Shown one piece after another: positions 4,466 through 13,239 of a stretch of DNA of 50,037 bases (within the stretch, counting starts at the first letter, position 1; every line of letters starts with the position of its first letter). The stretch comes from an uncultured bacterium. Its GTDB lineage: Bacteria; Cyanobacteriota; Vampirovibrionia; Gastranaerophilales; Gastranaerophilaceae. The position numbers and the translations under genes were made by a program. The notes under the pieces were generated by a model. It did not search any database and was not told where the DNA came from. It saw nothing but the letters and a program-made list of their open reading frames with translations. The DNA lies in assembly GCA_902797985.1 (NCBI GenBank), contig CADBUZ010000007.1, positions 1 to 50,037 of the forward strand, given 5' to 3'.

Positions 4466-5122
4466 CTAAATTCTTAATGAATTTCTGCTAAAGTCTGCAA
4501 ATGTATGTCTTTGAGTTGATATTTGAGGTCTTTGTTGAACACTATTATTTTCTTGCATTGCTTTTGGTGCAGGAATTTCTGATGTTTGTGCCAAAGAGCG
4601 TTTATATTTGTTTTGTCTGTATGATGCGATTTCGTTTCTTACGATTGGAGTAACGATGTTGCTTGAAATTATTCCGCCTGTTATTGCCGCACTTGCTTCT
4701 GCAAAGTTCTTGAATGAATCATACGATGTTTTTATTCCTTCTTTAAATCCCGGAACTTTGGTTATATCAAAATTGAATTTTCCTCTGCAATGTGTTAAAC
4801 CTTTGTTTTCTAAGAAGTTTAAGATAGGTTTTGTTGTTAATTTGCCTGTCGATACCATTTTCCCTGAAAGCCATTTCAAAGAAGATGTTATCCCGAAGTA
4901 TAATCCAATATTTGTTATTGCATCAGCTGCTTCTTGAGAAATCATGAATTTCTTTTGTTCATGTGAGTAATTTTTGTTTAGTGCAATCCCGATGATTTGT
5001 GCTGCTGATGATGCAACCCAAGCTGCTACAGAGGTGAGTATGATTATATCACCCATGTGGTTTGTACTGGCTAATGCTAAATTACCAAGTTGTTTTTTTA
5101 TCGCAGGAGGACAGGTTAACAT
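4466..5122 (-). CDS. Membrane protein of unknown function
   Basis: 218 residues with two or three hydrophobic stretches (about residues 20-50 'IIILTSVAAWVASSAAQIIG', 68-85 and 140-160) and a hydrophilic, Gln/Asn-rich tail (about 175-218). It overlaps the upstream gene by one base in a TAATG junction, so the two are translationally coupled. I do not recognise a characterised family. In style it resembles the neighbouring 5122-5799 gene and the 537-residue protein at 11421-13034, which also mix glycine/alanine-rich membrane segments with polar tails. An envelope location is inferred. Confidence 0.75.
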   Translation of the reverse strand: MLTCPPAIKKQLGNLALASTNHMGDIIILTSVAAWVASSAAQIIGIALNKNYSHEQKKFMISQEAADAITNIGLYFGITSSLKWLSGKMVSTGKLTTKPILNFLENKGLTHCRGKFNFDITKVPGFKEGIKTSYDSFKNFAEASAAITGGIISSNIVTPIVRNEIASYRQNKYKRSLAQTSEIPAPKAMQENNSVQQRPQISTQRHTFADFSRNSLRI

Positions 5123-5799
5123 TATTTAGCCCTCCTTCCGTTTAATTCTGCCGGATGGTTTATGAAAATATCTTTGAATTTTTCAACAACGTCATACGGC
5201 TCTTGTTTTGGGGTAGTTGTATTGTTAGGTTGAATTTGTTCTGCATCGTGTTTCTTGAATTTTGCAAGCAGATGTTTTGTTATAAAGTGTGTCAATGGTA
5301 CGTCAATTACTACGTTAGTAACTAACATCGCTAATAAACCTATAACTGTGGCTAATGCACTATTGTAATTTTTAAGCCAATCAGGATATTTTTTCGTTAA
5401 ATAAGTTACTACATTTTTGTTCGGTAATAATAGTTGCTGCCATGCTTTTGCGTTTTTGCTTGTGTTAGTAAGCGCTTTCGTTCCGTAGTAACATGCTGAT
5501 CTTACAGCACAGCCCACTGCTGTGCCTGCTATAATCTTACCAATTGTTCTACAGGTAGATACTTCTGCTGTCTCTTTGTCTACTTTAGGGTTGTAATAGT
5601 CTATGAACGGCTGTGATAATATAGCCGTAGCTCCCATAATTCCTCTGTTTACGTCAGGTCTGCTTATTATTGTGCCAATTTTGTTTAGTGTGTCTGCGTT
5701 AGGTAATGTGATAGCAGGCATAAACTCAAATATCCGGCGCTTTAGATTAAGACCGGTTACTGAGTTGCTTACTAATTTTGACACACTACTAATGTTCAT
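5122..5799 (-). CDS. Membrane protein of unknown function (with a conserved-looking RTIGKIIAGTAVG block)
   Basis: 225 residues from ATG at 5799, preceded by AGGGTTAGGT. An in-frame TTG start at 5859 would add 20 residues but has no ribosome site, so ATG is preferred. Features in order: a polar N-terminus, the segment RGIMGATAILSQPFIDYYNP, the block RTIGKIIAGTAVGCAVRSAC (about 85-105), a second membrane helix near 150-180 (ATVIGLLAMLVTNVVIDVPL), and a polar tail. Its stop overlaps the start of the next gene. I know no function; lineage-specific envelope proteins of this type seem to occur in several copies in this window. Confidence 0.75.
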   Translation of the reverse strand: MNISSVSKLVSNSVTGLNLKRRIFEFMPAITLPNADTLNKIGTIISRPDVNRGIMGATAILSQPFIDYYNPKVDKETAEVSTCRTIGKIIAGTAVGCAVRSACYYGTKALTNTSKNAKAWQQLLLPNKNVVTYLTKKYPDWLKNYNSALATVIGLLAMLVTNVVIDVPLTHFITKHLLAKFKKHDAEQIQPNNTTTPKQEPYDVVEKFKDIFINHPAELNGRRAK

Positions 5800-6062
5800 A
5801 CCTAACCCTATATATTCTATTAAGTTTTTTTGTTTGAGAAATTTGCTAAATTGTAACAATTCTTTAAGAACTCTTAAACCCTTTATTTTCAGAAGTTTGA
5901 AATGTATTTTTTGTTATATTTTTTTTATTTTATTAAAGTTCTTATAGCTATAAATTTTTTTAATATTTTTTGTTTATGTAACCATACGTTACGAATAAGT
6001 GTTAAGAGCTTTTTTTTATAAGCTGTTTTTGGTATTATCTTATAGGAGAGTTAGGGAGTTTT

Positions 6063-10830: not shown

Positions 10831-11435
10831 ATATATTATGTTTCGGAGATAGTAATACTTTCGGATATGTGCCAAAAACAGGTGAAAGGTATGATGCAAA
10901 TACTCGTTGGACATCCGTTCTTCAACGTGTTTTAGGTGAAAATTATAATATTATTGAGGCGGGCTGTAATAATAGAACAGGCTTTGTTGATAGTATTGAC
11001 GGAAAAGCCTTAACAGGGTATAAATTGTTGCCTGAGATTTTAGAGAAAAATCTTGATATTGTTATTATTGCATTGGGGACAAATGACATACAAAAGTTTT
11101 ATTACCCATCAATCGATATGATTGAAAAAGGTTTGTATTCAATGATTAAATATGTAAAATCTGTAGGGGCAAGAGTTATTTTGATTTCACCGCCTATTTT
11201 AAATGAAGATGTCCTGAAAGGGAATTTTGCATTTCAATTTGATGAAAAATCTATAGAGCAATCAAAAATTTTGCCTGATTTGTATCAAATGATTGCTAAT
11301 AAAACAGGTTGTGGGTTCGTTAATTTAAATAAGCATGTGTCAGTATCTTCTCAAGATGGTTTGCATTATTCTCCTGAAAGTCATAGCGTTATAGCAAAGG
11401 TGTTAGCAGATTATATTAAACTAAACTTTGCTTGA
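10824..11435 (+). CDS. SGNH/GDSL-family hydrolase
   Basis: 203 residues. Block I is CFGDSNTFGY (Ser nucleophile at about residue 9), the block II Gly/Asn is near GCNNRTG, block III is LGTNDIQ, and block V is DGLHYS (Asp and His of the catalytic pair). SGNH enzymes remove acetyl or other acyl groups from sugars and lipids. No signal peptide, so it is probably cytosolic. Last gene of the envelope operon: acyl trimming of the polysaccharide or its precursors is the natural inference. Its 3' end overlaps the convergent 537-residue gene by 15 bp. Confidence 0.88.
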   Translation: MLNILCFGDSNTFGYVPKTGERYDANTRWTSVLQRVLGENYNIIEAGCNNRTGFVDSIDGKALTGYKLLPEILEKNLDIVIIALGTNDIQKFYYPSIDMIEKGLYSMIKYVKSVGARVILISPPILNEDVLKGNFAFQFDEKSIEQSKILPDLYQMIANKTGCGFVNLNKHVSVSSQDGLHYSPESHSVIAKVLADYIKLNFA

Positions 11436-13034
11436 TAGTGATTTAAATTGGTTAAGGTTATAAAATTTATCTCCTGTAAAATTTGTTGAGGATTTAATAT
11501 TGTTTTCTGTTTTCGTAGTATTGCTTTTAGCTTGTTTTTTCCCTGTAATAAAAATATTGAGTTTAGGGAGTAAATATCCAAGAGCAATCGTTGAATATGC
11601 AAGTCCGGAAGCTTGCGCAAGGTTTAATTTCCACATATTCTTTTGTGCAAATTTAGTTCCTTTTGATGCTATTTCATTATGACTTTTTAGAGTTAAATCA
11701 TTAAGCCAATGTTTAATTCCTTTTCCGGATTTTGATTCGTTGAACAAGATTTTATGTTTCGGATCAAGAATATTTGCTACACCTTTTGCTGCAAACCCAC
11801 CCAGAACAAGCCAGTTTAAAAATCCTAAGTAATCTCTTGTCGCAGTTTCTCTTAGCTCGTCTTTGTTGTCTGATGCCATAAATCTTCCAACCAAAGTTGC
11901 TCCATAAACTGTTTTTATTGCGTTTCCGCTTGTGACAGGACCTGTGAATTCAAGTTTTTTTACAAAATCTTTTGCAGATTTTACTCGCATAACTCCTAAT
12001 GCCATTGCAACCATTCCGGCGCTCGCTAAGAGTTTTTCTCCAATAAATTTTTTGCTGGTATCTTTTGTAGATGTTTTTTGTTTTATGTTGTTTTTATAGT
12101 CTTTATCTCCTACAAAACCTTTTGTTCCTGTACGTTTTTCTGTTATTTTTCTATTAATATACTGATTTGTCAGCCCTAATGTCGAAGCAATTGATAATGC
12201 TCCAAGTGCTTTTATTTTGTTTATTTTAACCAGTTTATCAATGGCTTTTTGTTGGTTTATTTTTGTGTTCGTAAAAATATCTTTTCCTATATCAACTGTA
12301 TCCCTGAGTAAATTTGGGATACTTGTTGAATGTGTGTTGTTTCCGTTTCTTACAGTTATGCTATTTGCTCCTAGTGCATTTGTAACTCTTGTACTTAGAA
12401 TATTTAATAAATTTTTTCTATCGTTTTTTGTAATGTTTTTGTTTTCGATAAGTTCTGTTATTGTTTCAGATATTGCTTCTTTAGTTTTTAATCTTTCATG
12501 TATATAATTATATTTTTTATTTTCCCAGTTAATTTTATTCCAGCGTTTTTCATCTATCCATTGTATGTTTTGCCAATCGATGTTTTTATATTGTTTAGTA
12601 GTCCCTCCGTCAAGACCGGCTGTGTTATCAAGTATATTTTCTACAAATTGAGATGTTTTATTATGTGAACTATCCCATGCTGATTTCATTGTAGTGATAC
12701 TATCTTTTGAAAACCAGCTATTTGGATTTATTGGTGTCGACGGATCTATTATTTTATTCGCAATTTTAGCAATGCCTTTTGCTAAGTAGCTTGCAGATAA
12801 GCAAACTATTATTGTGCCTGTAAATTCTCTGAAGAAGGTTTCTGCTCCTGCATATTTATTTCTTTCTTTTGTATCGACGTATGTTCTTGGTGCAACCATT
12901 GAGAATAGGTCTATACCAACAGCATTTGCCATAGGATTAGTGTCTAATGTCCTTAGTGTTGTTGTTATTGCACCATCTAATACTCCTTTGTGTGAAGGTG
13001 ATGTGTTATTTGAGTTTAGTTGTTGTATTTTCAT
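11421..13034 (-). CDS. Large membrane protein of unknown function, behind an apparent attenuator
   Basis: 537 residues; the polar start MKIQQLNSNNTSPSHKGVLD is followed by several hydrophobic segments (about 80-105 'IIVCLSASYLAKGIAKIAN', 285-300, 345-360, 400-425, 480-500) separated by polar stretches, with an aromatic Trp-rich patch about 155-175 (NIDWQNIQWIDEKRWNKINW). It is a relative in style of the proteins at 4466-5799. No known domain recognised. The gene begins with GGAG about 10 nt before ATG. A transcription attenuator candidate lies directly upstream, so expression may respond to cysteine or Cys-tRNA supply, although the protein itself contains hardly any cysteine. The 3' end overlaps the convergent SGNH gene. 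Confidence 0.8.
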   Translation of the reverse strand: MKIQQLNSNNTSPSHKGVLDGAITTTLRTLDTNPMANAVGIDLFSMVAPRTYVDTKERNKYAGAETFFREFTGTIIVCLSASYLAKGIAKIANKIIDPSTPINPNSWFSKDSITTMKSAWDSSHNKTSQFVENILDNTAGLDGGTTKQYKNIDWQNIQWIDEKRWNKINWENKKYNYIHERLKTKEAISETITELIENKNITKNDRKNLLNILSTRVTNALGANSITVRNGNNTHSTSIPNLLRDTVDIGKDIFTNTKINQQKAIDKLVKINKIKALGALSIASTLGLTNQYINRKITEKRTGTKGFVGDKDYKNNIKQKTSTKDTSKKFIGEKLLASAGMVAMALGVMRVKSAKDFVKKLEFTGPVTSGNAIKTVYGATLVGRFMASDNKDELRETATRDYLGFLNWLVLGGFAAKGVANILDPKHKILFNESKSGKGIKHWLNDLTLKSHNEIASKGTKFAQKNMWKLNLAQASGLAYSTIALGYLLPKLNIFITGKKQAKSNTTKTENNIKSSTNFTGDKFYNLNQFKSLSSKV

Positions 13035-13051: not shown

Positions 13052-13083
13052 AAAAAAGTTCCTCATCAAATGACAAGGAACTT
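13052..13083 (-). terminator. Attenuator terminator just upstream of the 537-residue gene
   Basis: On the minus strand the arms AAGTTCCTTGTC (13083-13072) and GATGAGGAACTT (13067-13056) form a 12-bp stem (two G-U pairs) with loop ATTT, followed by six T's. It ends only about 18 nt before the start codon at 13034, where an unconditional terminator would make no sense. An alternative pairing of the same left arm with 13131-13123 exists (see the leader feature). Confidence 0.75.
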
Positions 13084-13129
13084 AAACTTTTATTCTACTA
13101 ATTTGCACGTTAAAATATCTGTAAGTCCC

Positions 13130-13189
13130 TTATTGGTTCTTACAGCAACAACAAAATGCGTTATTAGTATTTAGATAATTTAGTGTCAT
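13130..13189 (-). CDS. Leader peptide with four consecutive cysteine codons
   Basis: A 19-codon ORF, MTLNYLNTNNAFCCCCKNQ, with codons TGT TGT TGC TGT at 13153-13142. It starts about 15 nt after the predicted transcription start and has only a weak AAAGAAC ribosome site. Three overlapping pairings follow: CTGTAAG (13145-13139) with CTTACAG (13125-13119); AAGGGACTT (13131-13123) with AAGTTCCTT (13083-13075), nine pairs including one G-U; and the terminator. The first excludes the second, and the second excludes the terminator. This is the trp/his-type attenuator design, where a ribosome stalled at Cys codons would favour the antiterminator. Function is inferred from architecture only. Confidence 0.65.
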   Translation of the reverse strand: MTLNYLNTNNAFCCCCKNQ

Positions 13190-13210
13190 ATTTTTGTTCT
13201 TTTTTTTTTA

Positions 13211-13239
13211 TTTAAAACAGAAAATAAAAATTTTGTCAA
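13211..13239 (-). promoter_or_regulatory. Promoter for the attenuator leader
   Basis: On the minus strand TTGACA (13239-13234) is a perfect -35; after a 17-bp spacer comes TTTAAA (13216-13211) as the -10. Transcription would begin near 13204 and run through the leader peptide into the 537-residue gene. Confidence 0.65.

Follow-up and report, generated by a model that had tools for sequence, protein, structure and literature searches.

A putative transcription attenuator with four cysteine codons, and its serine-codon variant, before an unknown predicted membrane protein of Gastranaerophilales

Why should the gene for an unknown protein, predicted to lie in the membrane, stand behind what appears to be a complete attenuator of the trp/his type, with four tandem cysteine codons in its leader? 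The question is raised by a locus in the window, which is the whole stretch of DNA analyzed here (50,037 nucleotides from an uncultured bacterium of the Gastranaerophilales). A sequence-only reading of this DNA had proposed a promoter, a 19-codon leader with the run Cys-Cys-Cys-Cys, and three sets of pairing arms, 1:2, 2:3, and 3:4. All of these are found at the places claimed for them, as read from the sequence (Table 1).

Architecture of the leader in the window

Table 1. Features of the putative attenuator and the gene behind it
Feature	Positions	Strand	Remarks
-35 box TTGACA	13234..13239	minus	from the sequence
-10 box TTTAAA	13211..13216	minus	17-nt spacer from the -35 box
Leader ORF MTLNYLNTNNAFCCCCKNQ*	13130..13189	minus	19 codons, end CCCCKNQ
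Four tandem Cys control codons, TGT TGT TGC TGT	13142..13153	minus	
Arm 1, CTGTAAG	13139..13145	minus	overlaps the last Cys codon
Partner of arm 1, CTTACAG	13119..13125	minus	forms the 1:2 hairpin
Arm 2, AAGGGACTTACAG	13119..13131	minus	partner is arm 1 or arm 3
Segment of arm 2 pairing with arm 3, AAGGGACTT	13123..13131	minus	
Arm 3, AAGTTCCTT	13075..13083	minus	antiterminator with arm 2, otherwise 5′ arm of the terminator
Terminator hairpin 3:4	13056..13083	minus	12 bp, 4-nt loop, -14.1 kcal/mol
Terminator T run, predicted RNA 3′ end	13052..13057	minus	
P0001, controlled gene	11421..13034	minus	537-aa predicted membrane protein

The stop codon of the leader lies at the 5′ edge of arm 2, the 2:3 helix comprises nine pairs, one of them G-U, and 17 nt separate the end of the T run at 13052 from the ATG at 13034. 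The 156-nt leader folds at -37.4 kcal/mol, compared with -20.9 +/- 3.2 kcal/mol for shuffled sequences (z-score -5.1; 0 of 200 shuffles fold as well), and the minimum-energy fold of the whole leader combines the 1:2 and 3:4 hairpins. Strings of four TGY codons occur 28 times in the organism's own genome. That of the window is the only one for which a start codon opens a short ORF between genes and a terminator and a gene come next, a comparison that relies in part on a scan of about 45% of the genome. With respect to a T-box or riboswitch, no Rfam match was obtained in the window, where two tRNAs alone reach the gathering score.

Such an arrangement would work as follows. A ribosome slowed on the four Cys codons would cover arm 1 and leave arm 2 free to pair with the emerging arm 3, and RNA polymerase would read into the membrane-protein gene. 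With Cys-tRNA plentiful, the ribosome would get to the stop codon and cover arm 2, in which case arm 3 would pair with arm 4 and transcription would end near 13052, the net outcome being a protein made mainly in cysteine shortage. At equilibrium the terminator wins over the 2:3 helix (-17.2 versus -13.6 kcal/mol at locus L001), and readthrough thus hinges on the order of co-transcriptional folding, as in trp. We regard it as very likely that the leader is a ribosome-mediated transcription attenuator that senses the supply of cysteinyl-tRNA by stalling on Cys codons. This judgment rests on sequence, with no expression data behind it; translation of the leader, termination and readthrough in vivo, and a rise in readthrough when charged tRNA falls are all inferred.

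Conservation and alternative pairing in related genomes

Close relatives of P0001 occur across the whole family and in some of the order's other families. When 244 genomes of the phylum were searched with a profile, no match outside the order was among those listed. The named relatives come from rumen and gut and are assigned to Candidatus Gastranaerophilales / Melainabacteria. Upstream DNA was examined for 132 members of the leader-bearing group and for 21 more distant paralogues, a leader being defined as a short ORF with at least three Cys or Ser codons in a run, or with CCAC or CCSC. A run leader was observed at 127 of the 132 loci (a Cys run at 61, a Ser run at 66) and at none of the 21 paralogues. 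Thus, the expectation of the sequence-only reading that orthologues would conserve the Cys codons holds as far as the run is concerned but fails for one clade, which has a Ser run instead. An intrinsic terminator lies between run and gene at 123 of these 127 loci, the remaining four having none by the scan used, and a sigma-70-type promoter (TTGACN plus a -10 box matching at least 4 of 6 positions) precedes 112 of the 127 leaders, compared with 8 in shuffled controls. The residues of the leader peptide outside the run vary freely. Within it, control codons differ synonymously among loci (TGT/TGC and TCC/TCA), with frame and residue preserved. At one locus (L004, on contig C79 of G003), the CCCC leader and the 1:2 pairing are kept and a clear 3:4 terminator is absent.

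The same reading had left open that the leader was captured from elsewhere. This is not supported, because leader and gene have been inherited together over the order while the neighboring genes change. A distant relative in another family (L020/L229, on contig C129 of G041) also has a leader, MLSFTSKLNAQQQQQQAATAQKAAQFCCLRFCNKFK, with a promoter and a terminator; this leader of L020, QQQQQQ...CCLRFC, carries a Gln run followed by Cys codons. Given this locus, a Cys-type leader could predate the leader-bearing group, to judge from sequence alone.

The pairings themselves were compared across the aligned leaders. Among 38 Cys leaders, 92% of cells are paired for 1:2, 97% for 2:3, and 96% for 3:4, and among 42 Ser leaders the values are 81%, 96%, and 99%; slid registers pair in 17-66% overall, and in 23-66% for 2:3 and 3:4. 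For 2:3 and 3:4 in either group, and for 1:2 among the Cys leaders, covariation scores are higher than in any of 500 shuffles and also higher than in the slid registers. The compensatory changes in the arms that had been looked for are thus present in 2:3 and 3:4 of both groups; in the 42 Ser leaders, covariation of 1:2 does not rise above shuffles. The sequences are kin, which inflates covariation counts, and the changes are not independent events. Owing to this kinship, we lean less on the counts than on the joint pattern, in which arm 2 fits both arms 1 and 3, and arm 3 both arms 2 and 4, despite changing letters. Complementarity between arms 2 and 3 reaches p<=0.05 in 113 of 123 leaders.

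The geometry with respect to the ribosome is consistent among loci as well. Folding was simulated with the RNA present before arm 4 is made, the ribosome being assumed to cover 12 nt past the A site. With the ribosome stalled on the control codons, arm 3 was bound to upstream sequence in 54-55 of 58 Cys leaders and 59-63 of 65 Ser leaders (91-97% of loci). With the ribosome at the stop codon, this was the case in only 13 of 57 and 16 of 65, respectively, or about one-quarter. The modeled ribosome masks arm 2 when at the stop codon and arm 1 only when at the control codons. In 73 of 124 leaders, the stretch separating arms 2 and 3 holds a pause-like sequence, TTT..YGYG, compared with 8 in shuffles. 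Conservation, covariation, geometry, and codon choice all support the attenuator reading. In the A2/A3 alignments, TTTTG[AT]TGTG is conserved about 10-15 nt past the 1:2 hairpin and resembles a polymerase pause site.

Serine and histidine leaders and the proteins behind them

In a maximum-likelihood tree of 72 proteins, all leader-bearing genes form one clade (100/99), and the Ser-leader genes form a single clade nested within it (100/97). The branches around the Ser clade have the Cys state, so that one Cys-to-Ser change suffices. In this sister clade the control codons have, from their sequences, turned to serine TCN with the architecture retained. Mixed runs (CCSC, SSSSC, and SCSSSS) occur, and seven genomes (G134, G179, G208, G232, G285, G335, and G367) each carry two copies, one behind a Cys leader and the other behind a Ser leader. 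Serine codons of the leaders are almost exclusively TCN (TCN:AGY 310:4, versus 300:192 in the downstream genes; p 3e-43), with TCC making up 60% of Ser codons in leaders and 3.5% in genes. In Bacillus subtilis, serine starvation makes ribosomes stall at UCN codons and at those for Cys, but AGY codons have no such effect (PMC3862929). By analogy, such co-stalling would fit both the codon choice of the leaders and an easy change from Cys to Ser.

The Ser-leader covariance model also matched a different gene, in G081, where the leader MILRTAQLHHHQHHSFLKGL and a terminator precede a gene for a 428-aa unknown protein. Of 286 genomes of the order, 256 have a member of this protein's family, and a His-rich leader was seen at 29 of the 30 loci examined. 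The organism's own genome has one on the minus strand at L352 (contig C26:1-20000), where the poly-His leader MKIFYLTTEHHHSHSNPKGLWILM with a terminator precedes the gene for a 455-aa unknown protein that contains one His. In the 831 kb of this genome that were scanned for run-type leaders with the full architecture (about 45% of it), only the Cys and His kinds were found. Homology between the Cys/Ser and His families was not demonstrated (hhalign probability 14%), and a fold search with the His-leader protein gave no PDB match at E<=0.001. Many His loci (L235-L241, L250, and L260) have features of their own: the region upstream of the gene contains CAATTCTTTT, which could form a helix with AAAAGAATTGGAG and so hide the Shine-Dalgarno site where AAAAGAATTGGAG lies, and GAATTGATG, located past the leader stop, might act as a competitor, making translational control next to, or in place of, termination possible there. 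At four other loci (L244, L245, L251, and L257), near-identical leaders, MFTPSVKRHHH[NS]HHHCH, with at least six His, are followed by an arrangement unlike that of other His leaders.

The AlphaFold model of P0001 is confident and all-helical (pLDDT 85, pTM 0.81), and the protein has five moderately or weakly hydrophobic segments; its membrane location is a prediction. No match was found in NCBIfam, PHROGs, or PADLOC, no usable one among PDB sequences, and no Pfam family over its cut-off (DUF2982 is sub-threshold, at 14.7 bits versus 25). Transporter families gave no sequence match, and the fold search with the Cys-leader protein gave none at E<=0.001 in the PDB or BFVD. Among transporter folds, the best was Na+-PPase (Z 5.7), with GltPh weak; both are within noise, and no inference is drawn from them. 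The next gene downstream in the window is convergent, and the P0001 gene is therefore probably transcribed alone, as far as gene order can tell. The sequence-only reading had placed relatives of the protein at 4466-5799; no similarity in sequence links the ORFs at 4466-5859 to it, and the protein's true paralogues lie on another contig, C22. On the minus strand, 4466-5859 holds two adjoining ORFs for unknown proteins of 245 and 218 aa, both predicted to lie in the membrane, for which there was no family match and no run leader upstream.

No neighbor of the leader-bearing gene is conserved at more than 11 of 80 loci, and mnmA, which beside the leader would have pointed to sulfur, was set aside: it stands there in some genomes of the same genus, an association that breaks down elsewhere. 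Nearly every genome tested has both cysE and cysK, and hence their presence is uninformative as a predictor of leader type. No such leader lies upstream of cysK-cysE in the own genome, and thus the attenuator is not the cell's general Cys regulator; the cells are probably able to make cysteine by a pathway that such a leader does not govern.

The products were observed to be poor in the residue that their leaders encode. Cys-leader proteins contain 0-2 Cys each (0.14%); the frequency is 0.56% in the Ser-leader members of the family, 0.67% in paralogues lacking a leader, and 1.23% among the genome's long ORFs. P0001 itself has one Cys in 537 residues. Ser-leader proteins contain 4.3% Ser versus 7.1% in both comparison groups, and proteins of the His-leader family contain 0.01% His versus 1.55% in the genome (none at all in 14 of 15). 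Within the seven two-copy genomes, Ser is lower in the Ser-leader copy in all seven, and Cys is lower in the Cys-leader copy in six, with one tie. The p values of 2e-5 to 1e-16 overstate independence, the clades being few. This depletion is evidence independent of that from the RNA, and it suggests that each protein would be made when the amino acid of its leader is scarce. A link of the protein to Cys-tRNA status, which the sequence-only reading had offered, is thus supported by the Cys depletion of the downstream proteins, and the Ser and His leaders widen it. Cognate bias of this kind is already known for amino-acid biosynthetic enzymes (PMC4209129). The depletion fits a role of the product during shortage of the residue concerned. 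What that role is can only be inferred; acquisition of the scarce amino acid, by uptake or scavenging, is a guess that we hold weakly.

Alternative explanations and relation to known attenuators

Two alternatives would remove amino-acid supply from the picture. The nascent poly-Cys peptide might sense metal, oxidant, or sulfide through its thiols, an idea to which the leaders lend some color in that CCCC and HHHH, both present in them, are classic metal ligands. A large clade, however, has the same architecture with runs of Ser, a poor metal binder; the confinement of leader Ser codons to TCN matters to tRNA and not to peptide chemistry; the peptide outside the run is not conserved; and every product is poor in whichever residue its own leader encodes. 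We consider thiol or metal sensing highly improbable. Still less can be said for a constitutive intrinsic terminator behind a chance Cys-rich ORF, without regulation of any kind. Expression data are lacking for any of these uncultured genomes, which leaves room for this view, but it is contradicted by conservation at 127 loci, the covariation of alternative pairings, the geometry at the stop codon, and the codon bias, and we give it next to no credence.

A more serious alternative keeps the attenuator and differs on its purpose only: the tRNAs for Cys, Ser, and His may be the first to lose their charge, so that the leaders would sense starvation or slow translation in general and the product would belong to a general starvation or stationary-phase response. 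Serine is among the earliest amino acids to be exhausted, and in B. subtilis Ser and Cys codons stall together on its loss (PMC3862929); serine is also the precursor of cysteine, with cysE and cysK present; and the proteins, with five weakly hydrophobic segments and no fold match, are unlike textbook transporters. Against this, seven genomes maintain separate Cys and Ser copies and most genomes also retain the His-leader family, both of which suggest amino-acid-specific roles. We judge a general response unlikely, without dismissing it. The best reading of the sequences remains that attenuation would serve to make these proteins during Cys, Ser, or His shortage.

The mechanism is classical. 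Like the trp and his attenuators of Proteobacteria, the leaders described here combine tandem control codons, 1:2, 2:3, and 3:4 helices, an intrinsic terminator, and a pause-like site after 1:2; those attenuators control biosynthetic operons, whereas here Cys or Ser codons precede an unknown predicted membrane protein, in a lineage of non-photosynthetic relatives of the Cyanobacteria. Descriptions of Cys attenuators that include an intrinsic terminator are rare. The uORFC-8-2 motif of the Rhodobacterales cysS leader (PMC8632094) shares ribosome-mediated attenuation, tandem Cys codons, and an intrinsic terminator, but it has two Cys codons rather than three or four, controls cysteinyl-tRNA synthetase, belongs to alphaproteobacteria, and was proposed from comparative sequence analysis. 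The Cys-responsive polycysteine leaders of mycobacterial cys operons likewise are short ORFs in which consecutive Cys codons stand close to the stop. In contrast to the present leaders, they lack a conserved terminator hairpin (PMC1262725), control Cys biosynthesis, and are described as translation attenuation in PMC13236596 (citing Canestrari 2020). In B. subtilis sinR (PMC3862929), TCN codons sense serine starvation, AGC and AGT do not, and Cys codons slow too; the sensor codons lie inside the regulated gene, however, and there is no leader peptide or attenuator. As in the cognate bias of biosynthetic enzymes (PMC4209129), proteins made in shortage would hold little of the scarce amino acid; here the bias appears in unknown membrane proteins and is used as a clue to the signal of the leader. 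In the open literature, on which any priority is provisional, we found no description of a comparable Ser attenuator, neither a Cys nor a Ser attenuator before an unknown membrane protein, and no paper on leader peptides in the Gastranaerophilales lineage. The target, the Ser variant, the Cys/Ser switch, and the parallel His family thus look new, provisionally.

Taken as a whole, and with somewhat less than even confidence, we tentatively propose that the Gastranaerophilales possess lineage-specific membrane proteins, each with an attenuator of its own that induces it when one amino acid (Cys, Ser, or His) runs short, that the Cys and Ser members are paralogues whose sensor switched once from one residue to the other, and that these proteins have shed the sensed residue and may obtain it in a new way, their substrate specificity having changed together with the leader. 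With both Cys and Ser leaders in one gene family and a single traceable switch between them, the way in which an amino-acid sensor evolves becomes open to direct test. The type of leader predicts when each unknown protein would be made and which amino acid to try, and so provides a handle on unknown protein families present almost throughout an uncultured order of the gut and rumen. Furthermore, depletion of a residue in the product is a purely genomic sign of the signal to which a leader may respond, and could be used elsewhere.
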